Source: a virus
Virus record (IMG/VR): IMGVR_UViG_3300031673_000519
Coordinates: 1 to 22,614 of that record
Length of the DNA stretch: 22,614 nucleotides
Direction: 5' to 3' (one strand)
Position numbers and translations under genes: made by a program. Shown here piece by piece: positions 1,621-18,490 of the stretch (its first letter is position 1; every line of letters begins with the position of its first letter). The notes under the pieces are model-generated. The model worked only from the letters and a program-made list of their open reading frames with translations, was not told the origin of the DNA and searched no databases.

Positions 1621-2082
1621 TTATAATATAGGTTCTTCAGTAGTCTCTCGAGGATTTACAACCTCTTCGGGAAGCTGACCAACTTTTGCGCGAACATCCA
1701 TTGTATATGAGGTTCCATCAATCTTGAATCCAATTATAAATGTTGTCCGAGCTGGATCAACTATATTCCCAAATTCATCAACTCTGATTTGGTTTCTCCT
1801 CTTGAATATGATTGTTGCCCTACCTGTTCCAGAAATTCCTCCTGGAGTAATATCCTCATTGTGTGGTGTAGCTACAGTCCCTTTATAGAACTTATAGTTC
1901 ACAGTATCAACTGAGTAAAGATTTGGTGTGCCCTCGTTCTGTTCAACGATTCTAAACTCTTTGACATTATCAGCATTGATTAATGTAATGACATCAGAAT
2001 AAGGATTCTCAGAACCTCCTGCATCCTGCTCAAGTTCAGTATCGTCGTTCTCAATTGCCAACCATTGATATTTAAGTGCCAT
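1621..2082 (-). CDS. Hypothetical virion-module protein (153 aa)
   Basis: The 153-residue protein begins MALKYQWLAIENDDTELEQ. It has a strong SD (AAAGGAGGAGATACAC before ATG). It appears to be a longer paralogue of the 121-residue downstream protein, with insertions around residues 45-60 and 80-95 and an acidic, proline-containing tail (EEVVNPRETTEEPIL). The core motifs IIFKRRNQIR and TTFIIGFKIDGTSY suggest a beta-sheet domain. It overlaps the end of the triple-fusion glycan enzyme by 11 bp, so it is probably co-transcribed with it. No catalytic motif is visible and I do not recognise a named family. Confidence 0.7.
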   Translation of the reverse strand: MALKYQWLAIENDDTELEQDAGGSENPYSDVITLINADNVKEFRIVEQNEGTPNLYSVDTVNYKFYKGTVATPHNEDITPGGISGTGRATIIFKRRNQIRVDEFGNIVDPARTTFIIGFKIDGTSYTMDVRAKVGQLPEEVVNPRETTEEPIL

Positions 2083-4636
2083 GTGTATCTCCTCCTTTCA
2101 ACTTGACAACGACAATAGCTTCCTCGAACATCCTACCGTCAGTATATCTCCTGTCTTTGATGTATCTATGTTTGATACTTGTTTCATCAATAGGGAAATA
2201 ATCTGAAATCAGTTTATAAATGTCTGGCATTTGCCATATTCTCGGATGCTCTTGCCATGGTTCGTCGTTTATAGGAATGACTAAAATTATCTTTCCATCT
2301 TTTTTTACTAATTTTCGCATTTTTATAATTATCTCTTTTGGATCTTCGAAATGTTCGACAATATGCGAAGCAGTAATAACATCAAAATAAGACTCCTCAA
2401 ACTCATCTGTATTCTCTATTGGGTGGTTTGCATAGAAGATTGTTCTGTCCATTTCCCTGCAGTAATCAATAGCTTCATGGCTTATGTCTGTTCCCCATAT
2501 CTCAGACTTAGGGAATCTATGCCTCAAGAATCGTGTGAATGAACCAAGAGCACAACCCACATCAAGGATCTTATCTCCATCGGAAATAGGGGTTGCTAAG
2601 ATTTCATCCCTCTCTGGATCGTCTCGGGCCATAGGTTTATTTGCCTTCTCCTTAGCATACACACCATCCCAATACTCTGGAGAGTTCATTGCAATCTCTT
2701 CTTGTGGCTTTGGTGGCTTTGGCGCAGAGTCAACTGTGAGCTCGTCTTTCTTAGGGAATGTCATACCAAATTCATTGAACTTAGCATATTCCTCTGGAAA
2801 GAATTCCTTAATCCATTCATTAGAAATCTTATCCCACGAATAATCGTATCTCAGACAAGCTTCATGCATCTTCTGCCACGTCTCTTTCTCTGTTAAAATC
2901 TTGACGCATGCATCAATAAACTTCTGTTTGTATTCGTCAGTGTAGGGATTTCCCTCAATCTTTATACCAACATCATCAGGAACTGTTTCATTCAATGCAG
3001 CCTTAGCAGATGTTACAATAGGAGTTCCTGCAGCCTGGGCTTCGAATACAGTGATACAACAAGTTTCGTCATATGTGTTTGGATATGCCAGAAGCTCAGA
3101 TTCCATGAATTCTTTTGCAAGCTCCTCTTGTTTGATTGTTCCTTTATAATGGACTCCAGGTAGTTTCTTTGCCTCTTGATATAGGGACTCCCATTTCGCA
3201 TCGTCATATGCAGGACCATAAACCTTCATGGAACTGTAGATAAATAACTCCGCATGCGGAACTTTCTCTCTAATCTTTGGCCAAACTTCAATAAGAACAT
3301 CAAGCCCTCTGAATGGTGTGCTTGAATAAATACATTTCCCAGGTATCTTTTTAATCTTCTCTCTGTCTTTAAATCTTCCAGAGTCGATTCCATTCCTTGC
3401 AATAAAGAAAGTCTCTTCTGGAATCATCGTATATGCGAGTCGGATATTACGCCTGTGCCAGTCTGTAAGAGCAAAGATTTTATCTAAGTTAGGGAGTGCT
3501 TTTTCAATGCCTGACCAGATAGGATCTGTTGCAAGGTCATGCGCCCAAAGACAAACCTTCTTTGCATTCATCTTCTTGAAATCTGTTCTTTGTAGAAGAT
3601 CTACATTCCTCGATAAGATAAATAAGTCTGCGTTTGTTGCTGCAATATTCTCTGCTTTAGCACTCTTTATATCGTGGTATATGACATTATCATATATTCC
3701 AGGTGCATCGCAATTCGCAAATACATGCACATTGAATTTGAATTTGTTTGCAAAGATACGACTGAGATTGATAACATCTCCCTCAGATCCTCCTATGCCA
3801 CGCTTCTCGAGCTCGTCGCCTGCAAATGGATTTGCTGTTGCATTGAAGAAACAAATAGTTTTCTTAGACTCATCCATGCCAAGTTGTTTCTTATGCTTCT
3901 CAATAATATCTGCTCTTCCAACTTGGAGTAACTTCTGCTCTGAAAGCTTTCTTACTTGATCTTCTCCAGGAAAGAATCGTTTTGTTTTATAATCAAGATG
4001 GTCACATAGAATTCCTGTATCACACCAAACTTCAAAACCACATTCTCTTGCTTTAGTGAAGAAATAATGATCTTCACCAACTGGACACTTCATCTTTTTC
4101 CCATCTGTATCTGTATGAATCCAATTCTCAAGAAAGAAAGGCATACCTCTTTTCTCAAATTCATCAAATACACTCATATGAATTAAACAACAGCCTAACC
4201 CCGAACCAGCTACTTGGATAAGTTCATCAAGAGGAAAACTATCGTATGGGCCATCACCCATCTTCTTAAATATTACAGGTCTTGCAGGATCAGTTTTTGT
4301 CCAATACATTCCTGTTAGGATTTTCTTTCCAGAACTAATCATACGATTTACAGCATCATCTGGAATGAATACATCATCATCAATAAACATAATCCATTCA
4401 AAGTTCATGGCTCTGGCCTTGTGGACAACTTCGGTTCTTGCATCAGCCCATCCTCGTCCTTCTACAACAAGGTATTTCCAAAACATTCCGATAGGAAATG
4501 TGCCTTTAATCCTATCCATATGCATCATCCATTTCATAGAAACCCAGCCCCGGGTTATTACGCCGACGCCCATACCAACTGTTTCTTTCTTCTTTTCTTC
4601 TTCTTTTCTAAATTCTTCTGGTTCTTTAAAATCCAT
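2072..4636 (-). CDS. Tri-domain glycosyltransferase (GT-A) - glycosyltransferase (GT4/GT-B) - SAM methyltransferase
   Basis: I chose the ATG at 4636 (854 residues) because GGAGG lies 10 nt upstream; an in-frame GTG at 4690 would add 18 hydrophobic residues but has no SD. Domain 1 (about 20-240) is a GT-A-type fold with an acidic D-D-D at 86-88, a glycine-rich GSGLGCC at 144-150 and GEDHYF at 187-192. Domain 2 (about 255-610) is GT4-like: GIGGSEGDV near 280-287, WAHD 364-367, ARNGID 413-418, and the family signature FEAQAAGTP at 531-539. Domain 3 (about 650-845) is a class I methyltransferase with motif I LDVGCALGSF at 691-700 and HIVEHF at 758-763. One polypeptide could thus add two sugars and methylate one. 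Acceptor and sugars are unknown. Confidence 0.85.
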   Translation of the reverse strand: MDFKEPEEFRKEEEKKKETVGMGVGVITRGWVSMKWMMHMDRIKGTFPIGMFWKYLVVEGRGWADARTEVVHKARAMNFEWIMFIDDDVFIPDDAVNRMISSGKKILTGMYWTKTDPARPVIFKKMGDGPYDSFPLDELIQVAGSGLGCCLIHMSVFDEFEKRGMPFFLENWIHTDTDGKKMKCPVGEDHYFFTKARECGFEVWCDTGILCDHLDYKTKRFFPGEDQVRKLSEQKLLQVGRADIIEKHKKQLGMDESKKTICFFNATANPFAGDELEKRGIGGSEGDVINLSRIFANKFKFNVHVFANCDAPGIYDNVIYHDIKSAKAENIAATNADLFILSRNVDLLQRTDFKKMNAKKVCLWAHDLATDPIWSGIEKALPNLDKIFALTDWHRRNIRLAYTMIPEETFFIARNGIDSGRFKDREKIKKIPGKCIYSSTPFRGLDVLIEVWPKIREKVPHAELFIYSSMKVYGPAYDDAKWESLYQEAKKLPGVHYKGTIKQEELAKEFMESELLAYPNTYDETCCITVFEAQAAGTPIVTSAKAALNETVPDDVGIKIEGNPYTDEYKQKFIDACVKILTEKETWQKMHEACLRYDYSWDKISNEWIKEFFPEEYAKFNEFGMTFPKKDELTVDSAPKPPKPQEEIAMNSPEYWDGVYAKEKANKPMARDDPERDEILATPISDGDKILDVGCALGSFTRFLRHRFPKSEIWGTDISHEAIDYCREMDRTIFYANHPIENTDEFEESYFDVITASHIVEHFEDPKEIIIKMRKLVKKDGKIILVIPINDEPWQEHPRIWQMPDIYKLISDYFPIDETSIKHRYIKDRRYTDGRMFEEAIVVVKLKGGDTHGT

Positions 4637-4743
4637 TCTATTCAATCCTCCAAGTATAATCAAAGATATAATTATTAGAAAGCGTATCACTATTTTTAAA
4701 GTCTCTTCTTTGCATATCTATTCAACCAACCTTAGATTAGATT

Positions 4744-4766
4744 AATAAAAAAATAAAATAAAAAAT
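4744..4766 (-). terminator. T-rich tract, likely archaeal-type terminator
   Basis: Read on the minus strand, the sequence just after the stop of the 168-residue gene is an almost uninterrupted T tract (T6, A, T4, A, T7). There is no stem-loop. Such tracts are sufficient terminators for archaeal RNA polymerase. A TTTAAAAATA element at about 4691-4700 follows it and could be the promoter of the tri-domain gene. Confidence 0.5.
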
Positions 4767-4773
4767 TCACGAT

Positions 4774-5280
4774 TTAGACTTCATCATACTGAAGCGTGAA
4801 TGTTTTTTGCTGAACAGGTCCTGCACTTGCAGCTCCAGTAATTGACGCCTGAACAACGATAAAATCTGAGTCTCCTACAGCTGTCAGTGAACCTGTTAAG
4901 GAACCACCGATACCGATGTTAGCTGCTGTTGGATCTGCGACTGGCATGGCATTTGCTGCCTGTGCGTCTGCTGCATTTGTTGGTGTGACATAAGTGTCTG
5001 TTCCACCATATGAAGCAGTTGTTGCAGAAACCAATAGTGTTTCTCCTGTTACATAGCCCGATCCTGATGCACTCATCCAGAACTGAAGGTTATCAATTCT
5101 CGTGAACGAACCAGTAAAGTTTGCTACAGCCCATTTACTGTATGAATATGTTCCTGCAGTAATAGGGTAAGTAGACGGTGCCAAGTCAGCTGCGTTTGTG
5201 CTTCCAAGATTAAGATTTGTTGGGACTGATGTATCTCCTGCTGTCAGGTTATACTCAATCCAGCTAAATGTTGCGACCAT
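4774..5280 (-). CDS. Probable virion structural (tail/decoration) protein
   Basis: The 168-residue protein begins MVATFSWIEYN and is rich in Ala, Gly, Ser and Thr with no lysine-rich or membrane segments. Features such as 'YPITAGTYSYSKW', 'NLQFWMSASG', 'DFIVVQASITGAASAGP' and the ending FTLQYDEV resemble a widespread class of tailed-phage structural proteins that start F-S-W-x-E and end in Q-Y-D-E. The SD is strong (TTGGAGGTAAAAGAAA before ATG). It follows a 51-residue gene and is followed by a T-rich terminator, so it closes a transcription unit. The exact role (tail tube, decoration or baseplate) cannot be set from sequence. Confidence 0.7.
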   Translation of the reverse strand: MVATFSWIEYNLTAGDTSVPTNLNLGSTNAADLAPSTYPITAGTYSYSKWAVANFTGSFTRIDNLQFWMSASGSGYVTGETLLVSATTASYGGTDTYVTPTNAADAQAANAMPVADPTAANIGIGGSLTGSLTAVGDSDFIVVQASITGAASAGPVQQKTFTLQYDEV

Positions 5281-5299
5281 TTTCTTTTACCTCCAAGGT

Positions 5300-5455
5300 T
5301 TATTTATGGTAGACAGCGACATAACCTACGCCGTCCCAGAACACAGAGATTACTTTATGGGCTGGAACTCCTTCGTCTTGTAGAGCGGTTGTTACTTCAC
5401 CGAGTGTCCCTTCCAATGTGAAAAAATCCCCATATGTGTTTTTTGCTACAGCCAT
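5300..5455 (-). CDS. Small hypothetical protein (51 aa)
   Basis: A 51-residue ORF, MAVAKNTYGDFFTLEG...VISVFWDGVGYVAVYHK, with a GAGAGGG sequence 8 nt before ATG. It ends 20 bp before the start of the 168-residue structural gene. The pattern 'H-K-V-I-S-V-F-W-D-G-V-G-Y-V-A-V-Y-H-K' is typical of small beta-hairpin proteins encoded beside phage structural genes. No enzymatic motif is visible. It is the first gene after the glycan cassette; the AT-rich 78 bp upstream may contain its own promoter (see 5456-5533). Confidence 0.65.
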   Translation of the reverse strand: MAVAKNTYGDFFTLEGTLGEVTTALQDEGVPAHKVISVFWDGVGYVAVYHK

Positions 5456-5533
5456 CCTTATTATCCCTCTCTGAGTTTAATAGATTATAATTTAATCTGT
5501 ATTTCGACTAATTATTCGAATTTAAATAGTTTT
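5456..5533 (-). promoter_or_regulatory. Intergenic spacer with possible TATA-like element and inverted repeat
   Basis: This AT-rich gap separates the double-GT2 gene from the 51-residue gene. On the minus strand it contains TATTTAAATT (about 5519-5528), a weak TATA candidate, and a 6-bp inverted repeat with a 5-nt loop (AGATTA/TAATCT, 5482-5498). Either a weak promoter or a processing/termination site is plausible. Confidence 0.3.
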
Positions 5534-6949
5534 CTATATATCCTTCCATTTATTTCGGAAATACCATTTGTTCTTTCCAAAATCTTTGTAGGTTTTTGTC
5601 CCTTGATGAAGTGCCAATATATGGCCTGCATAAATCACAGAAATGCCAATTCGCATAGCTCTCTTTGCCCAATCTGCATCTTCAAGACCCCAATCAAGAT
5701 TATAATTTGAATCGAATAACCCAATAGTTTCTGCATTTGCTCTAAGGATTGAAACATTACCTCCCCCCATCATGCGCCATGGTTCATTAATATTTAACTC
5801 ACGATCTTCCAAGTCTGTTATCTCACCATCTTTGTCAACCTGGTTCCTTCCATGAATTGCTAACAGATTTCCGTTAGCATTATGTAGATTGATAACCTTC
5901 TCAATAAACTCATGCTCAGGGATCATATCTGCATCGAGGAAAACAATCACTTTCCCATAAGCAAGTTTCAACCCTGCATTCCGAACATTGCATAGGGTGT
6001 ATCCTTTGTCTGGATTCCAGTAGTATTGATAATTCAAAGGGTCACATGATTTGACATATGAGAGCACATCTTCTGAGCTACCATCATCAGCAACAATCAC
6101 TTCAAAGTTATCATACGTCTGGTGCCTAAGTCCATCAAGAGTCCGTTTCAATTCTTCAAGATTATTGTATGTTGGAATGATTACTGAAACAGCATAATCA
6201 AACTTGTTTACTCCACGAAGTTCTTGAGCTATATCAAAGGCTTTCCTTATTTGCTCTGGTTGTTCAGCAATAACTTCCTTGATTCCTTTTCGACTCATAT
6301 CAGTTTGTTCTTTCTTATTCTCTCTACTGATAGATTTATTATGACGAACATATCTGATAAGTGGTTCTTTGATTACTTTGAATCTACAGCATTTGATTGC
6401 AAGCTCAGAAAGGAATACATAATCAGACCCATACCTATATTTCTCACGATAATTTGCTTTATCAAGACACTCCTTCCTAAACATCACTGTTGGATGAAAG
6501 CATTGATTCTCTTTATAGATCATATCAAATAGATTAAATTCTGGAGCTTCGAAATGTTTTACCTTAACTGAATCATTTGGATAATTTATAATTACTGAAC
6601 TATAGACTACATCAACTCTTGGATTCTGGAGTAGTGTGTCAACCTCAACTTGCAATCTCTGTGGAAAATTGATATCATCGGAATCCATAACAGCAATGAA
6701 TTCTCCTTTAGCCATTGAATTGCCTATATTCCGCGCAGTAGGAACTCCCTTGTTCTCTGGAAGTTTTTTGTATCTTATTCGTGGATCTTGGAAGCTATTG
6801 ATGAATTCTTCAAGCTCTTCTTCTGAACCATCATCGATTATAATCAATTCAAAGTTCTCAAAGGTTTGGTTTAGAATACTTTTCAGAGTCTCAGCTAAGA
6901 GATTCTTTCTGTTATAGACACACATTACTACACTTACAAGTGGTTTCAT
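5534..6949 (-). CDS. Double GT2 glycosyltransferase (two fused GT-A domains)
   Basis: I chose the ATG at 6949 (471 residues): it forms an ATGA overlap with the preceding stop and has GGAG upstream. An ATG 18 bp earlier is possible. Domain 1 (1 to about 235) has SVVMCVYNR, IIIDDGS (37-42) and the metal-binding DSDD (89-92). Domain 2 (about 253-471) has SVIIPTYNN, IVADDGS (285-291), DAD (339-341), GLEDADW (421-427) and a downstream H448-Q-G. The two-domain layout, with the second domain carrying the ED-motif of polymerising enzymes, recalls chondroitin/heparosan-type bifunctional synthases. That suggests addition of two alternating sugars, but polymerase activity is inference. Confidence 0.88.
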   Translation of the reverse strand: MKPLVSVVMCVYNRKNLLAETLKSILNQTFENFELIIIDDGSEEELEEFINSFQDPRIRYKKLPENKGVPTARNIGNSMAKGEFIAVMDSDDINFPQRLQVEVDTLLQNPRVDVVYSSVIINYPNDSVKVKHFEAPEFNLFDMIYKENQCFHPTVMFRKECLDKANYREKYRYGSDYVFLSELAIKCCRFKVIKEPLIRYVRHNKSISRENKKEQTDMSRKGIKEVIAEQPEQIRKAFDIAQELRGVNKFDYAVSVIIPTYNNLEELKRTLDGLRHQTYDNFEVIVADDGSSEDVLSYVKSCDPLNYQYYWNPDKGYTLCNVRNAGLKLAYGKVIVFLDADMIPEHEFIEKVINLHNANGNLLAIHGRNQVDKDGEITDLEDRELNINEPWRMMGGGNVSILRANAETIGLFDSNYNLDWGLEDADWAKRAMRIGISVIYAGHILALHQGTKTYKDFGKNKWYFRNKWKDI

Positions 6950-8202
6950 TTTATCATGCTTCTCCATCCAATCTCTTCAAATGCTTGGATTGTTTTAGTT
7001 CTATTCGCTTTATGCCACGGCCTTCCCCAATTCCCATGTCTGTTCTCTGGAAGGTCTGTTGGTTTACAAGGATATATCGAAATAACATAAGATGGTTCTT
7101 TAGTAACCATTTGAATGGCAAGACCAAGAGCAAGATCCTCCTCATGATACTCATGAGCTTCCCTAAATTTAGGATTAAATACTGCTCCGATGAGCTCGGT
7201 TCTCACAATCATTACTCTGCCAACTGAGAAGTCAATAGGCATCTCCTTTATTCCATAATTACTTCCTATATAGTTACGGTCTTTGTCAAGAACACCATAT
7301 TTTAAAGAGATAAGACTTTCTGGATGCCTCTTACAACATTCTAATAAATATTCAATGGTCTTCGGATGAAGCATTAAATCGTCATCCTGGAAGACAGTCC
7401 ACTCTGTATCTGGAAGGATAGCTGGAAGATTCTTTATCCACGAACCATAATTCATATCACTTTTAATAACTCCATCAATCCGTTTTATTCCGTCTGCGCT
7501 ATATGGTGTCCAATCAAGATTGTTGCCATTATCCCAAAATATTATCTTTGCTGGAATTGTGCTCTGTTGAATACCTTCAATAATCATAGGAATATTTTGC
7601 TCTCGATCCCAGGTAAGACAGATAACCGTAACATCAACTGGATGGTTAACCAATTTAATCATACTCATCCAGGTAAGCTCCTTGAAGTCCTTATAGAACG
7701 GCTTAGCAGGGATCTTCTCAGTTTCATGATATTCTCCAAACCTCCAATCCCTTGGACTAAAACACTTACCCCATTGCTCTTGACTTTTGATCCTAAGTCC
7801 ACTATCATAGCTATCGTGCTTTGGATAGTTCGCTGGCGCAGAAGCGATTAGTAATCCCTTTTTCTTAAGAACCCTACGGATGTGCCATACAGACGATTCT
7901 ATGTCAGACGCAGATAAATGCTCTATGACGCTTGCAAAGATTATAACATCATAACTATTGTCTGGATCAGGAATCTTGTTTATTTGGCATACTAAATCAA
8001 CTCCTGGAGCGTCCTTGATGTCAGTATTAGTTACAGTATGTCCTGCATCCATTAAAGGTTTTAAAAGCATATTGTAGATATGGGGTTGGGATACTTTGAA
8101 ATAAGTCTCATCGCCACTCCCAACATTGAGGATATCCAGCTTCTTTCCATCTGCGAATTGTCTGATCCAATCATATATCTTGTAACATTCTTCCTCATTC
8201 AC
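6946..8202 (-). CDS. SAM methyltransferase - GT-A glycosyltransferase fusion
   Basis: The start is uncertain. I favour GTG at 8202 (418 residues), overlapping the TylF-like stop by 8 bp; longer in-frame starts at 8250 or 8319 lie wholly inside the upstream gene. Numbered from the GTG, the N-terminal half is a class I methyltransferase: LDILNVGSGDE (22-32), a D-I-K segment at 61-63, and ASVIEHL (90-96). From about residue 188 a GT-A-like domain starts (VDVTVICLTWDREQNI), with IIFWDNGN and the acidic FQDDD (271-275), then HEYHEEDLALG as the likely catalytic region. It ends by overlapping the double-GT2 gene. The fused pair may extend a glycan and methylate a sugar or cap. Substrates are unknown. 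Confidence 0.8.
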   Translation of the reverse strand: MNEEECYKIYDWIRQFADGKKLDILNVGSGDETYFKVSQPHIYNMLLKPLMDAGHTVTNTDIKDAPGVDLVCQINKIPDPDNSYDVIIFASVIEHLSASDIESSVWHIRRVLKKKGLLIASAPANYPKHDSYDSGLRIKSQEQWGKCFSPRDWRFGEYHETEKIPAKPFYKDFKELTWMSMIKLVNHPVDVTVICLTWDREQNIPMIIEGIQQSTIPAKIIFWDNGNNLDWTPYSADGIKRIDGVIKSDMNYGSWIKNLPAILPDTEWTVFQDDDLMLHPKTIEYLLECCKRHPESLISLKYGVLDKDRNYIGSNYGIKEMPIDFSVGRVMIVRTELIGAVFNPKFREAHEYHEEDLALGLAIQMVTKEPSYVISIYPCKPTDLPENRHGNWGRPWHKANRTKTIQAFEEIGWRSMIK

Positions 8203-8830
8203 CTTTCTGCCACCACCGTTCTGTATAGTCTGTAATAACAAAATTAACATGCAGTCCTCGTTTCTCAATGAATTCGTCAACTGCTTTTTGACATCCTTCC
8301 CAATGTCCATAGTCATCAATTATGATATATCCGCCAAGGGCAACTTTATCATACAAACTATCAAGACAGACTTTTGTTGATTCATACCAATCCCCATCAA
8401 GTCTTAGAATAGCAATCTTATCTATTTTTGCAATAGGAACAGTATCCTTAAACCACCCTTTTATTATCTCAACTTTGTTTTTAGGAATATCATATTCCCA
8501 AAGAAGACTCTTAATCCAGTGGATCCCTGCTGCAGTTTTGCCAGTCCAGTTAGATGCTTTATCTCCGTCTTCTTTTGTTGGGGCTGGCATACCTTCAAAT
8601 GAATCAAACATCCATGTTTTACGATCTTCATCGTGGGCATGGATGGCCATCAGAGTTGATGCGCCACCAGTATAAATACCACACTCGACAAAATCTCCTT
8701 CGATGCCTCGCTTGTTAACATCAAGGCATAACTCATACAGGTTACTCAATCTCTTTTTTCCAATCTTTGTGAATGGAAGTAAATCGTCTACGAGTATATC
8801 TTTTTTTAAATCGTTGTATGTATAAGTCAT
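8195..8830 (-). CDS. TylF/MycF-like O-methyltransferase
   Basis: The 211-residue protein matches the macrocin O-methyltransferase (TylF) family along its whole length. It has EGDFVECGIYTGG (44-56, SAM-binding loop), MFDSFEGMPAP (74-84), ILRLDGDWYESTKVCLDSLY (141-160) and YIIIDDYGHWEGCQKAV (168-184). The acidic residues in LDGD and IDDY are the metal-binding positions known in this family, which methylates sugar hydroxyls using SAM and Mg2+. The start has AGAGGGAATGAA upstream and overlaps the preceding stop (ATGA). In this operon it most likely methylates a sugar on the viral glycan; the family also includes antibiotic-sugar enzymes, but nothing here suggests antibiotic synthesis. Confidence 0.9.
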   Translation of the reverse strand: MTYTYNDLKKDILVDDLLPFTKIGKKRLSNLYELCLDVNKRGIEGDFVECGIYTGGASTLMAIHAHDEDRKTWMFDSFEGMPAPTKEDGDKASNWTGKTAAGIHWIKSLLWEYDIPKNKVEIIKGWFKDTVPIAKIDKIAILRLDGDWYESTKVCLDSLYDKVALGGYIIIDDYGHWEGCQKAVDEFIEKRGLHVNFVITDYTERWWQKGE

Positions 8831-9888
8831 TTCATTCCCTCTAAGTATATTTTCTTAATCTGCTCAAGAGTCATATTTTGTCTTGAATATGGTTTTGGCC
8901 CTGGGTTCTTATTAGGCCATATAATCTTTCTTCTTGCAATTAGTTCACCAAGAGCCGGTCTTAAATCATTCTCTTTTATCATTCCAGTATCAAACTTTGT
9001 GAATACCTCATTCCAAAGCTCAGGAGAATGATATGCACTAAAGCACGGAACATTCAAAAGATTTCTAAATGCTTGATGATATGCTCCTTGCCACCTGCTC
9101 CCTCGTGTATAAAAGAATTTCCAAAACTCATAATCATTCTTAGTCCCCTTCTTCCAGACTGTCTGGGCATTTAATGCATCACCCCAACATCCTGTCCAGA
9201 AAACAACCTTTCCGAGATCATCAATAACTGATTCTAATCTCTGAAAATATCTAAAATCAGGAGGATTGACAAGACCATCTGTTGCAATAATCTTTCTCTT
9301 GATAAACTCCTCTGTTTCATCATCCTCTCCATCATCAGCAATTAAAGTAATATTTTCACAATTAAGTTTTATAAATTCTGCAACGATGACAGCATTCGGA
9401 GCTCCTGAAAATGCAATCCACATATTAGGAAATTTCTTCTGCGCAAGAAGTATAATCAAACTATCTATGCCACCAGTAAGACAGACATGAAATGTTTCCG
9501 GACCATATTCTTCCTCAACTTGGTTAATCCATTTTTGAATTAACTTAGCTTGCAATTTAAGATATGTCTTTGGATCTTTGATAGTTGGAGTTAACTCCCC
9601 ACTGAACTTTTGTCTTTTAGGATATGCAATATGTAAAGGGAGTAATCGTTTAACTTCAATATCATGAGAATCTGGATGACTTGACCAATTGCCACCAACA
9701 AGTTTAATCTCTTTATTCTCAACAAACGATTCTTTGTGCTTGATGAGTTCAGCTGCACTTGAGGATGCAACAAGAAAGTTATCATTGACATAATAGAAAA
9801 CAGGATAAACACCACAACAAGTATCTCTAATAGCAGAACAATAATGGACTCGTTTATCAGACGAGTATATCATAATATCTGTTAGCAT
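8827..9888 (-). CDS. Asparagine-synthetase-like ATP-PPase (amidotransferase domain)
   Basis: The ATG at 9888 (353 residues) is preceded by GGAGGTGGTTGACT, a strong SD, so I prefer it to an upstream ATG at 9930. The core has the PP-loop LTGGIDS (137-143) and a later WTGCWGDAL (231-239), equivalent to the 'SG.G.DEL' loop of asparagine synthetase B. The N-terminal about 100 residues look like a remnant of the AsnB glutaminase fold, but no Cys follows the initiator Met (MLTDIM), so glutamine hydrolysis by the usual Ntn mechanism is not expected. In bacterial glycan loci such proteins amidate uronic acids. Here, between a glycosyltransferase and a methyltransferase, sugar amidation is the best inference. 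Confidence 0.8.
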   Translation of the reverse strand: MLTDIMIYSSDKRVHYCSAIRDTCCGVYPVFYYVNDNFLVASSSAAELIKHKESFVENKEIKLVGGNWSSHPDSHDIEVKRLLPLHIAYPKRQKFSGELTPTIKDPKTYLKLQAKLIQKWINQVEEEYGPETFHVCLTGGIDSLIILLAQKKFPNMWIAFSGAPNAVIVAEFIKLNCENITLIADDGEDDETEEFIKRKIIATDGLVNPPDFRYFQRLESVIDDLGKVVFWTGCWGDALNAQTVWKKGTKNDYEFWKFFYTRGSRWQGAYHQAFRNLLNVPCFSAYHSPELWNEVFTKFDTGMIKENDLRPALGELIARRKIIWPNKNPGPKPYSRQNMTLEQIKKIYLEGMK

Positions 9889-10612
9889 AGTCAACCACCT
9901 CCCGATAAACATCCAGCTTAGCATATTCATCGGGGATAGTAGGTCCTATGTCGGCTCTCACCATTTCAACAACTGGTTTTTTCCCACCATATCTTAATTC
10001 AAATAACTCTTCAATGGTTTTGCCAGTCATGACACTTTCCCTATAAACACATCTCTTCGCAATACGCTCTGGTGCTTTATTAAATTTAAAATGAATTGTA
10101 TAAATACCAGAAATATAATCAAAATTATCGGCATGGAATTTTGCAAATCCATCATCATCTGCATAGAAATCCATACCTGGTGATTTAATAAAACATGAGA
10201 AACCGACATCTTTAGGACCAAAGACCTTCCGAGTAGTCTTTGTCAAATCACGAGAAATCTCAAGATTGCCAAATCGGTAGAATGTGTTTGGTTTAAGTTT
10301 AGAAATAATTTCAAGGTAATCATCTTTTCGCTCTGGAATAAAAACAATGTCTGCATCCAAGCAAACAATAATTTCGTGCTTGGCTCGGTCAATTAACTCA
10401 TTCCTCACTTTTGGATTGGATCTTATCCTGCCTGAGAAAAGTCGTATCTTATCAGGAGCAATATTCAATGCCCTCATCATTTGAGCATATGAAGTATCAG
10501 AAGAAGCATCATCAAATACAAGAATCTCGTCTGCAAAAGCTAACGCTGACTTTATAGCAAAGAAAACCATACGTTCTTCTTCATAACATGGGATAATACA
10601 AGAAATTCTCAT
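9857..10612 (-). CDS. GT2 family glycosyltransferase
   Basis: The 251-residue protein opens with CIIPCYEEERM. It has ILVFDDASSDTS (30-41; the nucleotide-binding DD) and IIVCLDADIVF (85-95; the DxD metal site), the hallmarks of a GT-A/GT2 transferase. The rest contains KVRNELIDRA and SGIYTIHFKFNKAPERIAKR. It is shorter than processive GT2 enzymes and has no membrane segment, so it is probably soluble. It is the first gene of the glycan operon. There is no SD, but a TATA box lies about 25 bp upstream of its ATG. Its end overlaps the asparagine-synthetase-like gene by 32 bp. Confidence 0.88.
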   Translation of the reverse strand: MRISCIIPCYEEERMVFFAIKSALAFADEILVFDDASSDTSYAQMMRALNIAPDKIRLFSGRIRSNPKVRNELIDRAKHEIIVCLDADIVFIPERKDDYLEIISKLKPNTFYRFGNLEISRDLTKTTRKVFGPKDVGFSCFIKSPGMDFYADDDGFAKFHADNFDYISGIYTIHFKFNKAPERIAKRCVYRESVMTGKTIEELFELRYGGKKPVVEMVRADIGPTIPDEYAKLDVYREVVDYANRYYDILV

Positions 10613-11030: not shown

Positions 11031-11969
11031 TTATGCGTCTGATACGTTTATGATAACAATCGCACCTTCTTGTAATGTCTTGCACTGATAAGCCATATCA
11101 AGATAGACTCTGTATTCAGCCTGGTTCTTTTCATACTCAAAGTCCAGTGTTGGCCTCTCTCCGTATGCAATACCATATGCTACTTTAGCTTTTACCATAA
11201 AGCATGTATGGCCTGCAAGTGCTCCGCCACCCCATGTGGTTGCAGATGGGCACTGTTCGGTTGAGATAACCTTGATACCGATATACCTTCCGATCTCTCC
11301 ATTCATGACAACCTCATTGCTACCATATTCAGCTGCGTTAACGAACTGAGAATCCTTCATTAGGGCCTCTTCGTTAGCTGCTGCTATGAACAAGACAAAT
11401 GGTTTATCTGGCTCTGGATACCAACCGTTAGCTTTCAAATACCTATTCGCCTTGGCAATAAGATCAGTTGTCAAGACATCTCCAGCCTCAAGTGTGGCTG
11501 TGCTTGTTGCGTCTCCGCCGTAAAGTGTAGCTGCAGGGGATGAAGCTGCTGCAAGAGCAGTTCCAAATGCAATATCTATTGTTAGAGCTGCATCATAAAC
11601 CATTTCCTCACGAGCCCACTTAACAACATCAACCTGGGAAGTTCTAACAACGTCTTTTGAGACTGCTGCTCCAAACTTAGCGGTTGCAGGTGTAAATGTA
11701 ACTGTGTTCAGGTTATCCACCTGAGTCATAGTTCTATCAACGCCTTCTGCTGTTGTTGCGGTAAAATCAAGATGTGATGTTGCGACAGGAACCTCTACGT
11801 CCTTGTTACCTGGTCGAACCATTGTAACCCAAGCGAACTGCTCGAAGAACATCTTTTGCTTTGCTGCTGCAAGAATCTCTTGAATCCAGTATTTACCCTG
11901 AACTGTAGAAATACCTGTTGTGGCAGTAGTCGTATCGCCTGTTGCGAAGTCTTGCATTGTTTGTTTCAT
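11031..11969 (-). CDS. Major capsid protein (HK97 fold)
   Basis: The product has 312 residues from the ATG at 11969, which sits 6 nt after GGAGGT; an ATG 6 bp earlier abuts the SD and overlaps the scaffold stop. It has the size and composition of HK97-fold capsid proteins: an N-terminal arm (ATGDTTTATTGISTVQGKYW), a 'VRPGNKDVEVPV' strand, an alpha-rich segment VSKDVVRTSQVDVVKWAREEMVYDAALTID carrying the spine helix, and a C-terminal 'EYRVYLDMAYQCKTLQEGAIVIIN'. It lies immediately after the prohead protease/scaffold gene and before a strong terminator, the standard place for this gene. The N-terminal arm is nearly repeated at the C-terminus of the ligase-like protein encoded at 13561-15258. 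Confidence 0.9.
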   Translation of the reverse strand: MKQTMQDFATGDTTTATTGISTVQGKYWIQEILAAAKQKMFFEQFAWVTMVRPGNKDVEVPVATSHLDFTATTAEGVDRTMTQVDNLNTVTFTPATAKFGAAVSKDVVRTSQVDVVKWAREEMVYDAALTIDIAFGTALAAASSPAATLYGGDATSTATLEAGDVLTTDLIAKANRYLKANGWYPEPDKPFVLFIAAANEEALMKDSQFVNAAEYGSNEVVMNGEIGRYIGIKVISTEQCPSATTWGGGALAGHTCFMVKAKVAYGIAYGERPTLDFEYEKNQAEYRVYLDMAYQCKTLQEGAIVIINVSDA

Positions 11970-11971
11970 TT

Positions 11972-12574
11972 TCATACCTCCGGACCAATACTTTTTAGAT
12001 GTGCAAGAAGCTGTTCGTCAATATCGCCTTTCTCAGACATCTCTTCTGTCTTTACAGTTTTTTTGTCCGGCTCATTAAGCTTCTTCTCCATCATAGTCAC
12101 TTTCTCTGAAAGCTCCTGAATGGTCTTGTCTTTTTCCGAAACATCTTCACTGTTCTCAACTTCTTCAGTTGTTTCAGTTGCGGACTGGTCAGATTCTCCT
12201 TCGGTAGAGTCAGATTTCTTTTCTTTCTCTTCTTCTGAGTTCTCAACAGTCTCAGTTTCTGAGTTCTCTGCTTTCACTTCGCTCTTTGCTTTGAGTTCCT
12301 CAACGTCCTTTTTCATGGAATTAAGAATACTCATTATGTCCGAAAGTTCAATGGATTCACTCATCTTCCTCTTCTCAAATGCAGCTGCTGCATCCTTGAT
12401 GGACTTTCCTGGATTCTTCTTAAGGAAACCTTTAACAAAGTCTGTGTATTCAGAAAGCTCATAATCAATATCAGACATCTTATGCTCTGGTTTAGTTTCA
12501 GGGGTCTTTTCAGTCTCCTTATTCTCGACCTTTGCCTCAGTTGCCTTTGCTTCCTCGACTTTCTTTTCAGTCAT
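11972..12574 (-). CDS. Nested scaffolding protein (internal in-frame start)
   Basis: Within the protease-scaffold frame, an ATG at 12574 (residue 178 of the full protein) is preceded by GGAGGTAAACAAA, one of the best SDs in the window. The full-length gene has none. Starting here gives a 200-residue protein made solely of the acidic, coiled-coil scaffold region, beginning MTEKKVEEAKATEAKVENK. This is the same logic as lambda C/Nu3, where a separate scaffold is made in excess over the protease fusion. Its existence is inferred from the SD and domain boundary. Confidence 0.7.
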   Translation of the reverse strand: MTEKKVEEAKATEAKVENKETEKTPETKPEHKMSDIDYELSEYTDFVKGFLKKNPGKSIKDAAAAFEKRKMSESIELSDIMSILNSMKKDVEELKAKSEVKAENSETETVENSEEEKEKKSDSTEGESDQSATETTEEVENSEDVSEKDKTIQELSEKVTMMEKKLNEPDKKTVKTEEMSEKGDIDEQLLAHLKSIGPEV

Positions 12575-13105
12575 TTTGTTTACCTCCAATGGTTTTTTTT
12601 CCTGTCGCTGCGCATTGTTTATATACGCAGTCTTAACTGCAGGATTAATAACAATACTAAAATTATCAAATCTAAATTTCAACATTGAGCCTCCTTCCTC
12701 ATGGCCTGATACTTTTGGGCTGATGCCCATCTTCGCGCCATAAGCAAGTTTCATCGCGGTTGATTTGTCTATAATAAAAAGATCGCCAACAACATCGCTT
12801 CCAACCATCCTTGGGTTGCGAACCTCTCCAATCCACTCGCGTGATCGTAAATCTTCGTGGTCATTAAATAATGACCTGATTTCTTTTTTGTCCCATTCGC
12901 TTTCAAGGAAAGCTGCGTTGATAGACTTATCACTGTAATGATAGCCATTCCAAACTCCTGGACTCATTAGAATTTTGTCTTTAATAACATAAGGAAGTGT
13001 GATGTCCTTTTCTAAATCTTGAGATTCAAGTTTCTCAATTTTTTGTAGTAACTCTTGGACAACCGGTTGGTCATATAAGGTTTCGATAGGGATTTCTGTT
13101 TCCAT
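11972..13105 (-). CDS. Prohead protease fused to scaffolding domain
   Basis: The 377-residue protein has an N-terminal HK97-type serine protease domain: MSPGVWNGYHYSD (47-59), NDHEDLRSREWIGEV (81-95) with the likely catalytic His83, and MGISPKVSG (126-134) with the likely Ser129. From about residue 165 it becomes a charged, low-complexity, coiled-coil-like region full of Glu, Lys, Ser and Thr, typical of delta/scaffold domains, ending VTMMEKKLNEPDKK...HLKSIGPEV. The protease cleaves scaffold and capsid arms during head maturation. The gene has no SD but has a TATA box about 32 bp upstream. The capsid gene follows with its start at the end of this frame. An in-frame internal start at 12574 is described separately. 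Confidence 0.88.
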   Translation of the reverse strand: METEIPIETLYDQPVVQELLQKIEKLESQDLEKDITLPYVIKDKILMSPGVWNGYHYSDKSINAAFLESEWDKKEIRSLFNDHEDLRSREWIGEVRNPRMVGSDVVGDLFIIDKSTAMKLAYGAKMGISPKVSGHEEGGSMLKFRFDNFSIVINPAVKTAYINNAQRQEKKPLEVNKMTEKKVEEAKATEAKVENKETEKTPETKPEHKMSDIDYELSEYTDFVKGFLKKNPGKSIKDAAAAFEKRKMSESIELSDIMSILNSMKKDVEELKAKSEVKAENSETETVENSEEEKEKKSDSTEGESDQSATETTEEVENSEDVSEKDKTIQELSEKVTMMEKKLNEPDKKTVKTEEMSEKGDIDEQLLAHLKSIGPEV

Positions 13106-13307: not shown

Positions 13308-13574
13308 TTATTCTGAAATTTTTATTCCATATTTCTTTGCAGCAGCCTTTATCCTGGCTTTTATATTTCCAACTTGCTCAGACGAATAAAATCTCTGGTT
13401 CTTTGGAACGTTGATATAGCTCCAAGCTGCACGAACATGGGCTTCTGTATCAATAGGATACCTTTTTACTTTATCTGATTGATACCCAGGGTCTGCATAT
13501 GGAACTTTTCCATATGGTTCTTTATTTGCCATGAATGCTTCCTTAAACTCGTCTATTGTTTCAATTGGCATCAT
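13308..13574 (-). CDS. DUF6582-like protein (88 aa)
   Basis: The start is taken as ATG 13574 (or the adjacent ATG 13571), because AGAAGGTGAAA lies just upstream; a longer in-frame ORF to 13727 lies inside the ligase-like gene. The sequence YADPGYQSDKVKRYPIDTEAHVRAAWSYINVPKNQRFYSSEQVGNIKARIKAAAKKYGIKIS matches a short domain ('YADPGYQ.D...RYPID...H.RAAWSYI....N...Y...Q...IK.RI..AA...GI') found across tailed phages next to or fused to head-maturation proteases. Its exact role is not known. Here it lies two genes upstream of the prohead protease, consistent with that association. It overlaps the ligase-like gene by 14 bp. Confidence 0.8.
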   Translation of the reverse strand: MMPIETIDEFKEAFMANKEPYGKVPYADPGYQSDKVKRYPIDTEAHVRAAWSYINVPKNQRFYSSEQVGNIKARIKAAAKKYGIKISE

Positions 13575-15258
13575 TTTCACCTTCTTGTTGGCATGGCTTT
13601 TTCTTCTTAATGTATTTTCCTTGCACTGTTGGAATGCCAGGGGTTGATGTTGTTGTATCCCCATGAGAAACAATGATCCATGCATCACTTTCTTCTCCAG
13701 GAGAATAGACAGACTTGGGACCGTCATATCTTTTTATTACGGCTCCATTAGAACCCTTTAGATTTTTCAGGAAGGTTATTGTCTTCCTTGCTTTATCAAT
13801 AGATTCTGCTATGATGCTACTAACTTCTTTAATGTTGGGGGTGAAATTCAATGAATGTAGAATTTGCTTTCGCTGGAACCATTCCTTCTCTGTAATATTG
13901 TCCCCAAGTCTGAGAATATCAAAACAATTAAAAATTATTTTCTGTTCAGGAATTTTTAGTTGGCCTGAAACATATTTTTCTATCTCTAAATACCCTGAAG
14001 TATGATGTGTGATGTCACCGTTAAGCGTGAAATCCTTATTACTCATAGTTTTTGCCTCTTTTAAGACAATTGGAAAGAATTTTGAAATGTCTATGCCGTG
14101 ATTTGTGTAAATTTTTACAGAATTTCCGGCTTTGACTATAATTCCAGGGTATCCATCATACTTTTTCTCGATTGCATACTTAGAACCAGTGTCAAACATA
14201 TACTTGATAGCGTCTTCTATCTTATCAAAAGTCTGTTTTGGCTGCATTAATGCCATTTTTTGTGAAAAAGTCACAGAATCATCAACTAAATCCGGTTTTT
14301 CGAGATTTTGTCGCACAAGTTTTAGATCATAGAGTGGCATAGTAAAACTATTCGGCGCAATAGACCTCTTCCAAACAAAATTTAGTTCATCCCACTTAGC
14401 AAAATCATTGCATGCCTGTAATTCTACAGCTTTTTTGAAGAAATCTGGTGGATTGTCCATCTGAAATTGGATGCTACTGCCTTTTTCCGAAATTGTAGCA
14501 AAACATTCCATCACAGTTATATCTTTAAATTGACTGATGTGTTCAGATTCAGACAGATTTATCAACGATAACCCTTTTTTATCTTTTGAGAGGAGTGTGA
14601 AGAATTCTTTGGCTGCAGGTGTCATTCTTTTTGGATCAAAATCGCAATCTCGCGACATAAGTTCCTTGTAAAGATGTTTTCCAAGCTTTACTATCTCAGA
14701 AATATCTCTTTTTAGTGTTTTTCCGTTCCGAAATTGACTATACCAACAAGTAAGTATCTTCCAATCATCTGCCAGATCCATTGTTTCCTCAACTTCAGGC
14801 GTATAAGCAGAAAGATTTAAGGAATGCTTGAAGGTTCCTGGCTCAACAAAATCAAAATCATCTATGAACACATCAAATTCGTTCTCAAGCTTAATTCGTT
14901 TAGGCGTTTCGAAGATTTCTATAACCTCAAAGGGATAACAAAAGAGAATTTCCTTGTTTGGCCACCAATTTTGACGCTCATCGTCTGTTACATGGTGCTT
15001 ATCAAAGTCATCAGAGAACTCTTGTATGGTTATTTTCTCCGGATTACCAAGTTTTATGATGCCATAGGCCAATCGTTCACCGAGAAGATACTGTAATTTC
15101 CCAATTATGCTCTTATTGAGCTTGGAATTGATGATTAATGTCTTATGTCCCTCATAAATAAGCCTCGAATGGTAAGAAGAGAGGTTGATTCCACTACGAT
15201 TTTCCTTTAAGGTTTCGGAAATATCACAATCGCTACTCGCTTTCGGGGGGTTTTGCAT
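13561..15258 (-). CDS. ATP-dependent DNA-ligase-like protein with extra N-terminal domain and capsid-like tail
   Basis: The 565-residue protein has GAGGATTAAAAA upstream of its ATG. Residues about 30-140 form a domain with 'G-H-K-T-L-I-I-N-S-K', 'HHVTDDERQNWWPNKEILFCYPF' and 'F-E-T-P-K-R-I', which I compare tentatively to PUA/ASCH-like phage domains. Residues about 340-530 are a nucleotidyltransferase core: K-Y-D-G (366-369; Lys366 would be adenylated), LNGDI (412-416), FDILRL (446-451) and NGAVIKR (504-510). Motif V lysines and the OB-fold are absent. Instead, residues 533-549 repeat the N-terminal arm of the capsid protein, and the last residues are KKKKPCQQEGENDAN. It lies between portal and protease, an odd place for a ligase. 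Activity is uncertain. Confidence 0.75.
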   Translation of the reverse strand: MQNPPKASSDCDISETLKENRSGINLSSYHSRLIYEGHKTLIINSKLNKSIIGKLQYLLGERLAYGIIKLGNPEKITIQEFSDDFDKHHVTDDERQNWWPNKEILFCYPFEVIEIFETPKRIKLENEFDVFIDDFDFVEPGTFKHSLNLSAYTPEVEETMDLADDWKILTCWYSQFRNGKTLKRDISEIVKLGKHLYKELMSRDCDFDPKRMTPAAKEFFTLLSKDKKGLSLINLSESEHISQFKDITVMECFATISEKGSSIQFQMDNPPDFFKKAVELQACNDFAKWDELNFVWKRSIAPNSFTMPLYDLKLVRQNLEKPDLVDDSVTFSQKMALMQPKQTFDKIEDAIKYMFDTGSKYAIEKKYDGYPGIIVKAGNSVKIYTNHGIDISKFFPIVLKEAKTMSNKDFTLNGDITHHTSGYLEIEKYVSGQLKIPEQKIIFNCFDILRLGDNITEKEWFQRKQILHSLNFTPNIKEVSSIIAESIDKARKTITFLKNLKGSNGAVIKRYDGPKSVYSPGEESDAWIIVSHGDTTTSTPGIPTVQGKYIKKKKPCQQEGENDAN

Positions 15259-15261
15259 TTT

Positions 15262-16515
15262 TTAATCCTCAAGGTCCTCAACTTTCTTAATATAGTCTTG
15301 GATTTTCATATCTACTGGTAGCAGACCTGCTTTAATGTAAGATAAAATCCTTTTAGACTTCCTATCGATTTCATCTATGCCAACCATATCCCAATCAAGA
15401 CGTGGAACTTCCTTAAAACCTTCGAGTTCAATGAGTGGTTTGAACATTAATTGTTCAATCGCTTCTGTTGTGTTTTTGATAATATCTCTCAAGGTCAACT
15501 GGAACAAATCACTCATGTTATTCAAGGTTGCTCTGTTAGTTGCTTCTCCACTTCCTGTTGCATATGGCTTAGGAATACCCATTCCTGTTATCTGTTGGTC
15601 TTGGAAATAATCAAGATGATCTTGTAATTTTTCAGTTTGTTTAGCCTGCAGTATGCTAAGATTATAATAATAAGGTGTTGCGATTTCTTTTTTGAATGTA
15701 AGACTTTTCAGCTTATCCAACATTGTCTGGACCTGCTGAGGTGTTGGCTCGTGTTGAAGATCTCCAAGCTGTGCCCAATAGATTGGGAAGCCATGCCTCC
15801 AGATCGCATTTGCAAGTGCTTCTTCAACATTTTGTTTACGGATAGAATTGGCATATGTCGGTTCAATGAGTCCAAGGCCATAGAATCCATCACCAACTGT
15901 ATATAGATTTATAAGCGCGATTTTTTCACGGTCAATAAAAGTTTGGTTAGGTTGTAAGGTAACTCTTGATGGTGCTTTTTTCGCATTGGTATTAGGAGCG
16001 TGGCTGTAATAAGTCGAGAGAGTCTGTGTATAGCCAACTGCCCTCCCAAGAGAATCAAGCACTATCCTTTCAGAACTATCTTTTGCATAGTCCATGGTTT
16101 TAGGATCGACCATATCCCAATCCACAATCCTATTTCCTTTCTTGTTGAAAACATTTTCAACCCACGCTCTACCATAGATACATTGATGGAGAAATATTCT
16201 GGATAGAATTTCTTCCCAAGTAATCAATGAACCAGAATTACCGAGGTTATGGACAAAATTCCTTGTAAACTCAAGAACTTTTTTATCCTTTGCTTTAATC
16301 ATATGCACTGCAGACATTATAGTCTGTTTGATTTTATTGATAGAATTAAATACAGTTGTATCATGGATATATATTAATTCAAGCTCTTGAAGTGGGGTTC
16401 TCATAATTCCAGGAGTTTGCTTTTTTGCTTTTGGATCTGCATCTTCTTTTGTAGCTGCAGTTACAGCCATTTGGAATGTGGGGTCAACTCCAAGTGTTTC
16501 AGATATAAGTCTCAT
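15262..16515 (-). CDS. Portal protein
   Basis: The 417-residue protein has the layout of tailed-phage portals: an N-terminal wing with 'ELELIYIHDTTVFNSINKIKQTI' (about 46-66), 'SLITWEEILSRIFLHQCIYGRAWVENVFNKKG' followed by 'D-W-D-M-V-D-P', and a clip/stem region 'GFYGLGLIEPTYANSIRKQNVEEALANAIWRHGFPIYW'. The crown-like end contains LDYFQDQQITGMGIPKPYATGSGEATNRATLNNMSDLF. The dodecameric ring forms the DNA entry vertex. The SD is strong (GGAGGAGAAAA before ATG). It overlaps the upstream membrane-protein gene (ATGA) and is followed 3 bp later by the ligase-like gene. Identification is by overall pattern and position beside the terminase. Confidence 0.88.
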   Translation of the reverse strand: MRLISETLGVDPTFQMAVTAATKEDADPKAKKQTPGIMRTPLQELELIYIHDTTVFNSINKIKQTIMSAVHMIKAKDKKVLEFTRNFVHNLGNSGSLITWEEILSRIFLHQCIYGRAWVENVFNKKGNRIVDWDMVDPKTMDYAKDSSERIVLDSLGRAVGYTQTLSTYYSHAPNTNAKKAPSRVTLQPNQTFIDREKIALINLYTVGDGFYGLGLIEPTYANSIRKQNVEEALANAIWRHGFPIYWAQLGDLQHEPTPQQVQTMLDKLKSLTFKKEIATPYYYNLSILQAKQTEKLQDHLDYFQDQQITGMGIPKPYATGSGEATNRATLNNMSDLFQLTLRDIIKNTTEAIEQLMFKPLIELEGFKEVPRLDWDMVGIDEIDRKSKRILSYIKAGLLPVDMKIQDYIKKVEDLED

Positions 16516-17086: not shown

Positions 17087-18490
17087 TTAAATCGCAACAA
17101 AATCTAAGAACTCTCTGGCTTCTGATATTGGTTTACAAGCTAAAACAAGACTGATGGCTGTATCGTCATGCGGTGCAGTGCTTAAATAAGTTATGTTGCC
17201 CACTTTAGTTTTAGCTTCTGTAAAGGAAATCAATTCATTGACTAATATGTTTGTATAGCCCAAAGTCTGGTCGTTCTTTTCATTTCGGGGAATAATAATC
17301 CTCCGTTCCTCAAATAGTCTTCTAAGTTGAAGAAGCATTTTAGCTCTACTTTGTGATGAAAAATCTGGAGCCTCAAATGGAATCATCTTTTCGCGGAGCC
17401 GTTCAGCGATTGCTGCGCCAACATTACTTGGATCTATTACAACTTTTGTAACTTTATATTTTTCAATCAGTTGTTCGATTCTCATCATCTTACCGACGAG
17501 AGATAATCCTTTATGTCGTTCACCATGCCTAATAACTGCTTTGTCACCAAGCCGTTCAACAATTAGATATGAATCAAAATCAGCCCTGGGTCCACTGGCG
17601 ATAGCAAAATCACAACCAAGTATTACCATACTATCTCCTTTAATCCTCTCGCCAAAAGACATAGTATAGTCGAATGCATCTTGGACGAGCTCGGGTGTAA
17701 ATATTGCATTCTCAGAAACTGCTGTTGGATTACATAGATACTCACGCTCAAAAGCTGCCTGACCTATTTCATCACGGATTAAAGCAAGGCGTTTTCGATC
17801 AAACCTTTCAGGCCATAATAATTCATCATCATCACTTATTGCTTTATATTTTTTGGAGGTCCATGCAGGATTCCTTGCAAGAACTTCCATAAGGTCTGCT
17901 ATTGATTCTGGGGTTGAGATTGTTGCAACGGTTCCGTGCTTTGCTGCAGCTCTGGTCACAACGAACCTAAAGAAGATTGATTGATCCACATAGGATGCTG
18001 CTTCATCGCATAGAATAAAATCAACGTGGTATCCTTTGATGTTTTCAGTAAATGGTTTACAATATATCTGGCAACCTGATTTCACTAAGATATCTGTCTT
18101 AGTCCATTTAGTTGTTCTTACTTTCTGGTCCGGCATTAATTCTTTTAGATATTCATTTTCTTCGATAGCAATCCTAATCCTTTCCAGGACCTTGACTGCC
18201 TGTGGAATTGACTTAGAAATGATTAGAAATTCTTTATTCTTCTCAAACATACATCGCCATAGAAGATAGCTTGTTCCAAGGATTGTCGTTTTCCCAAATC
18301 CTGTGGGTGCAGTGATAGAAACCCTCTCAGAGGTAGTAACCATATGTATCCATTCCATATGAAATGGTTGAACATCAAAACCAAGAACATCCTCAGCAAA
18401 TGTTTTGAAGTTCAGTTTGAAATCCATGACCTTACTGATAAATGTGCTTGGATCATTTTCGTTATAATCCTCTCCGAAGATTTCAATCAT
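17087..18490 (-). CDS. terL: Terminase large subunit
   Basis: The 467-residue ATPase-nuclease drives DNA into the prohead and cuts it. The ATPase domain has Walker A APTGFGKTT (61-69), Walker B DFILCDEA (157-164, with D162/E163) and the coupling motif ISTPES (191-196). The RNase-H-like nuclease domain has GCDFAIASGPRADFDSYLIVER (292-313, D294), VVIDPSNVG (350-358, D353) and APHDDTAISL (439-448, D442/D443). All three acidic metal ligands are present, so the enzyme looks intact. The start overlaps the stop of a 96-residue gene (ATGA). No strong SD is present, consistent with coupling. Confidence 0.97.
   Translation of the reverse strand: MIEIFGEDYNENDPSTFISKVMDFKLNFKTFAEDVLGFDVQPFHMEWIHMVTTSERVSITAPTGFGKTTILGTSYLLWRCMFEKNKEFLIISKSIPQAVKVLERIRIAIEENEYLKELMPDQKVRTTKWTKTDILVKSGCQIYCKPFTENIKGYHVDFILCDEAASYVDQSIFFRFVVTRAAAKHGTVATISTPESIADLMEVLARNPAWTSKKYKAISDDDELLWPERFDRKRLALIRDEIGQAAFEREYLCNPTAVSENAIFTPELVQDAFDYTMSFGERIKGDSMVILGCDFAIASGPRADFDSYLIVERLGDKAVIRHGERHKGLSLVGKMMRIEQLIEKYKVTKVVIDPSNVGAAIAERLREKMIPFEAPDFSSQSRAKMLLQLRRLFEERRIIIPRNEKNDQTLGYTNILVNELISFTEAKTKVGNITYLSTAPHDDTAISLVLACKPISEAREFLDFVAI

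Follow-up and report, generated by a model that had tools for sequence, protein, structure and literature searches.

Copies of the capsid N-terminal arm in other head-region proteins of uncultured tailed viruses: a candidate docking tag

Lambda C and Nu3, and herpesvirus UL26 and UL26.5, are pairs of a protease and a scaffold protein that share a C-terminal segment and so enter the procapsid together. The shared C-termini arise from nested genes and, unlike the arm copies described below, are not copied from the capsid protein. In phage T4, the capsid targeting sequence (CTS) forms an N-terminal propeptide that the protease removes. This short stretch is conserved on internal proteins that otherwise differ widely; it encapsidates them into the precursor core, and foreign proteins can also be packaged by means of it (PMC3012670). 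Encapsulin targeting peptides are short, mostly C-terminal and disordered, and are present on an enzyme encoded near the gene of an HK97-fold shell (PMC6668986). These papers do not describe either signal as copied from the shell protein (PMC3012670; PMC6668986).

The DNA analyzed here, termed the window, spans the complete 22,614 bases of an IMG/VR virus record. The gene order on its minus strand is terminase, a short open reading frame, Mu-like portal, ligase-like gene, DUF6582 open reading frame, protease/scaffold-like gene and capsid gene (Table 1). A segment of the capsid N-terminal arm is found a second time, in the tail of the ligase-like protein, and in related viruses such segments are on several different proteins. 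This resembles the T4 CTS in that a short packaging segment would be carried by diverse proteins. However the T4 CTS is N-terminal, whereas the window family has its segment at the C-terminus or internally, as a copy of the capsid N-arm. The likeness to encapsulin peptides lies in the short, disordered, mostly C-terminal segment on an enzyme whose gene is close to that of an HK97-fold shell. Encapsulin systems have an HK97 shell without phage morphogenesis genes, whereas the window has terminase, portal and protease/scaffold genes and is thus a virus; in addition, the window peptide looks like the arm of its own shell protein and not like a complement to it. No description of such capsid-arm copies was found in open-licence papers.

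Table 1. Features of the head region of the window
Feature	Positions	Strand	Basis
Major capsid protein gene, 314 aa	11031..11975	-	TIGR04387 E 6.3e-26; PF25209/PF05065; AF2 pLDDT 82; Foldseek
Capsid N-terminal arm segment GDTTTATTGISTVQGKY, residues 13-29, source form of the tag	11889..11939	-	Translation
Protease/scaffold-like protein	11972..13105	-	Homology to S77/prohead protease-annotated ORF, BK059162 (Altivir_8)
DUF6582 ORF, start overlaps end of ligase-like gene	13308..13574	-	PF20223 E 3.4e-20
Ligase-like gene, 565 aa: N-terminal domain and nucleotidyltransferase domain, then tag and Lys-rich tail	13561..15258	-	PF01068 E 2.7e-12; archaeal DNA ligase fold; alignment; AF2
Basic tail IKKKKPCQQEGENDAN directly behind tag	13564..13611	-	Translation
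Arm-copy tag GDTTTSTPGIPTVQGKY, residues 533-549	13612..13662	-	Translation; profile match E 3.3e-6
Mu-like portal protein	15262..16515	-	PF06074 E 2.6e-12
Terminase large subunit	17087..18490	-	PF03237/PF17289; phrog_38

The capsid arm and its copy in the ligase-like protein

The capsid protein is a member of the N4-gp56 family (TIGR04387, 91.4 bits against a cut-off of 60), and its model matches the capsids of phage N4, GP4 and HK97 in Foldseek (E ≤ 1e-11), i.e. the HK97 fold. The arm segment GDTTTATTGISTVQGKY and the ligase-like segment GDTTTSTPGIPTVQGKY are identical at 14 of 17 residues, and their DNA is identical at 36 of 51 bases (71%). An earlier note on this DNA had reported the same peptide agreement, together with a DNA identity of about 70% estimated by eye; both figures hold, the first on minus-strand translations. 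The note placed the segments at the correct coordinates but missed that both genes are on the minus strand, and translation of the plus strand at these positions gives nonsense. The tag ends 16 residues short of the C-terminus of the ligase-like protein. When all open reading frames of the window are searched, the best local score is 73 as compared with about 32 ± 3 for shuffled arms, which is 13 SD above.

Codon usage gives an indication of how the pair has been maintained. The 14 identical residues have the same codon at 5 positions and a different codon at 9, where an agreement of 5.7 is expected at synonymous saturation with the codon usage of the window. Over 18 arm-tag pairs, a few of which are weak, 101 codons are shared and 116 differ. 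As synonymous codons are near saturation, the pairs are either old or fast-saturated and have been kept by selection at the protein level.

The AF2 models, which are of monomers only, show pLDDT values below 50 for capsid residues 1–26, with a helix from residue 25. The ligase-like model is confident through its last strand (523–531) and falls below pLDDT 50 from residue 534 to the C-terminus. The shared segment is predicted to be flexible in both proteins and lies within unrelated folds, in keeping with a linear motif. A clear Lys-rich stretch is found behind 14 of 16 tags (counted by eye from a listing), and K/R make up 39% of the stretch behind tags versus 15% of the whole proteins.

Arm copies among related viruses

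Searches with capsid and ligase alignments gave approximately 80 capsid-bearing loci (denoted by L numbers) and further ligase-like loci. An alignment was needed for the ligase-like relatives, since a single-sequence search of viral_contigs with the ligase-like protein gave no relatives; the ligase-like query found generic ligases only in the phage collection. Relatives are located in a Nanoarchaeia bin, a Methanosarcinales bin, an Altiarchaeum virus and an Omnitrophota bin, and the tag-bearing family is one of uncultured tailed viruses whose hosts are probably archaea for the most part.

The ligase-like gene of the relatives is found in the same slot, between portal and protease/scaffold. Besides the window, tagged ligase-like proteins are encoded by L005/L017, L007/L038, L008/L039, L016/L030, L018/L031, L021/L035, L033, L034, L040 and L041, at least 11 related viruses in all. 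L098 has a short degenerate ligase-like protein that ends in GSPYSGHVLEPA and a Lys-rich tail, and this sequence matches the virus's own arm, GSAYSGYELEPA. Copies in L048, L051 and L037 are weak and are excluded from the established set. Fourteen viruses have a capsid identity to the window of about 60% or greater; 13 of these have a ligase-like open reading frame and 11 of the 13 have the tag, the exceptions in this closest clade being L032, which has no tag, and L037, which has a weak tag only. The peptide is thus real beyond one genome and is not a private duplication, as relatives keep it. Overall, the ligase-like open reading frame is present in 40 of 69 viruses and a recognizable tag in only about 13; it is absent from many of the more distant viruses that have the gene. 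For the approximately 27 viruses that have a ligase-like open reading frame without a recognizable tag, the explanation would be either excessive divergence of the tag or the use of another route.

Conservation is higher in the tag than in the protein that carries it. Mean identity of the tag over 11 tagged ligase-like proteins is 61%; the ligase core reaches 43% and the residues that follow 24%. T15 and G21 of the arm are almost invariant in 48 capsid proteins. The tag is found behind the core, behind the OB-fold or ahead of a LAGLIDADG domain, and with this variety of positions behaves like a mobile linear element. When the tag peptide was used as query, a scan matched only ligase-clade contigs that were already known. 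A search of Genome_contigs gave 4 capsid relatives; no arm copy was found in the three included in own-arm scans (L107, L108 and L110), nor in Altivir_8, Bacteroides phage BS162P1 or Streptomyces phage GiJojo.

A profile was built from the capsid arms of eight other viruses, with the window omitted, and was searched against 1691 open reading frames. It matches capsid proteins first and then ligase-like proteins only, those below E = 0.01 being L038, L041, L040, the window (3.3e-6), L030 (5e-5), L035, L033 and L031. The similarity thus survives a profile search. A permutation test on 69 viruses scored every arm against the upstream open reading frames of all of these viruses. Own-arm pairs sum to 2559, re-paired arms give 2161 ± 47 with a maximum of 2388, and 0 of 100,000 permutations reach the own-arm sum. 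Seven other 36-residue segments of the capsid protein show no excess in the same test (z of −1.3 to 1.7, the arm having 8.6). With per-protein shuffles, ten matches are within the Bonferroni limit for 238 tests, i.e. L072, the window, L030, L086, L038, L041, L040, L091, L075 and L017; each Gumbel p-value is estimated from 300 shuffles. The own-arm scans cover the retrieved stretches, and a copy lying elsewhere in a longer genome would escape them. For L040 and L041, the fit of the tag to arms of other viruses equals or exceeds that to the virus's own arm.

Four of these ten are not in ligase-like proteins and were overlooked by the earlier note. The arms of L072, L086 and L091 are of other types, and each is copied just past the protease domain of the protease/scaffold protein. 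The copies and their own arms are, in that order, KLSDETTSSVSSGSEISDANSNQKIKYGKK and ELANETTSTVSRGSAISNVYVNQPIMYGEE, KLDGETQNSGIKGKPVGSDELKPRE and ELTGETTNSGIKGDSVTSTELQPVE, and KMEETKSTDVRGKKIESKGLQPI and KLAESEPNDTRGSSVASYGLQPV. L075 has an own-arm copy at the C-terminus of the portal. The p-value is ≤ 3e-5 for each of the four, whose capsids have 34–40% identity to that of the window. No arm copy is present in the window's own protease/scaffold protein. All confident tagged proteins come from the head-assembly block, from terminase to capsid gene. That unrelated arm sequences, in differing carrier proteins, display the same own-arm relation is the strongest sign of function. The protease/scaffold protein of L086 (4876-6180) has a Gly-rich sequence, GPGGHVPDGTGPHGSGGGPGNGKADGSG, immediately ahead of the arm copy.

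The ligase-like protein of the window has an archaeal DNA ligase fold (PF01068, 47 bits), and its motif I, KYDG, fits KxDG. An OB-fold is absent by alignment and from the AF2 model, which is disordered past 534, and motif V is degraded, reading DAWIIV where L030 reads DAWIKF, so that the motif V lysine is gone. Given these two features, ligase activity of the window protein should not be assumed. The proposal that the tag replaces motif V and the OB-fold fits the window, where the tag begins exactly at the end of order (534). However L030 and L038 carry both an OB-fold and the tag, thus replacement is not the rule. The protein shares a nucleotidyltransferase of DNA ligase fold with DNA ligase D and MBL-ligase-phosphoesterase architectures (PF01068 + PF12706), and many relatives are far larger, with MBL, OB, PE-like and LAGLIDADG domains added. 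The window protein differs from these architectures in the missing OB-fold, the degraded motif V and the location of its gene between portal and protease/scaffold.

Several relatives show further changes. Motif I has decayed in L008, L034 and L035 (KNYQG, KMHGG and KKYGG) and the tag is retained, which suggests that some of these proteins lack ligase activity. In L007/L038, L008/L039 and L034 the tag is directly followed by a fused LAGLIDADG-like domain. L048 (2775-7619) encodes a 1614-aa MBL-ligase-PE protein with an intein-like insert inside the PE-like domain, and the ligase-like protein of L031 (3931-6456) may carry the tag twice, with the additional copy, ATTTKTKGISKISG, upstream of the main one.

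Proposed docking role and alternatives

The peptide is probably a docking tag that mimics the arm and draws accessory proteins into the procapsid. The capsid N-arm is flexible and would presumably fold onto a partner during head assembly, either a neighboring capsid subunit or the scaffold. The copy in the ligase-like protein, on a disordered tail or linker with a Lys-rich stretch, could take the same site, and the tagged protein would thereby be built into the procapsid; we infer both the binding to the arm's partner and the packaging in the virion. Some relatives bear the copy on the protease/scaffold protein or on the portal in place of the ligase-like protein. A packaged enzyme may act, e.g. 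in sealing or cleaning DNA ends. Copies on portal, protease/scaffold and repair proteins fit docking: the genes of all three belong to the head block, and portal and protease/scaffold have to get into the procapsid. Of the three functions suggested in the earlier note, the cargo or prohead signal is the best supported, in that relatives keep the peptide and profile similarity persists.

More tentatively, tailed viruses might copy their own capsid N-arm, as an interchangeable self-tag, onto any internal protein due to enter the head (repair enzyme, portal or protease/scaffold), with tag and arm co-evolving and with a DNA-end-repair enzyme riding in the particle to the next host cell. If true, the cargo of HK97-fold viruses could be predicted from sequence alone, by the presence of copies of their own capsid arm in other proteins, and this would provide a testable rule for enzymes that travel in particles. 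It would also point to the packaging of DNA-repair enzymes by viruses of which little is known, and suggest a simple protein-loading route for HK97-type shells.

The segment may instead be a recognition or cleavage site of the prohead protease, as had also been suggested, with the capsid arm trimmed and the ligase-like, protease/scaffold and portal proteins cut at the same sequence. The arm is at the capsid N-terminus, a frequent place of cutting by prohead proteases, the copies of L072, L086 and L091 are just past the protease domain, and some copies are interdomain (L038, L039 and L030). However the window's protease/scaffold protein is an expected substrate and has no motif, the protease/scaffold proteins of other viruses with tagged ligases give no significant match, and arm types vary widely though the protease is homologous. 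The SPN3US prohead protease recognizes only the three residues A-X-E (PMC10052503), whereas the similarity here extends over 17 to more than 30 residues. Weakened by the length of the segment and by its absence from the window's protease/scaffold protein, a protease site is unlikely, though it stands as the main rival to the docking tag.

Binding to a partner outside the shell, e.g. a tail-side, decoration or host protein, would make the segment a shared interaction motif and not a packaging signal. The same sequence evidence supports it as supports docking, but the confident tagged proteins, portal and protease/scaffold included, are all encoded in the head block, and such a partner is rather improbable. 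A non-functional recombination or segment duplication between neighboring genes is more doubtful still. The capsid and ligase-like genes are about 1.6 kb apart and modules of the head region are mobile; against this, synonymous saturation accompanies protein conservation, the tag is conserved above the ligase core, and own-arm matching recurs in three different carrier proteins, all of which disfavors recombination as the sole source of the peptide. Chance likeness of Thr/Ser-rich linkers is rejected, for although the segment is Thr-rich, the composition-preserving arm shuffles, the permutations, the control segments and the clean profile search all speak against it.

Neighboring genes

Neither Pfam nor PHROG gives a match for the protease/scaffold-like protein of the window. 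DH and GIS motifs are seen to be conserved in the sequences, and the putative protease assignment is based on these and on the homologue in the Altiarchaeum virus Altivir_8. DUF6582 forms an open reading frame of its own in the window (13308-13574) but is within the protease/scaffold open reading frame of L004, L005 and L072, and thus looks like a mobile head-assembly module; no literature naming DUF6582 was found among open-licence papers.

On the terminase side of the record an ARPP-1 domain protein is encoded at 19045-19980 (PF20208, E = 6.5e-17). Downstream of the capsid gene, large glycosyltransferase- and methyltransferase-like open reading frames are found in series at 2072-10612, and an asparagine-synthase-like open reading frame is at 8827-9930, both as judged by eye.
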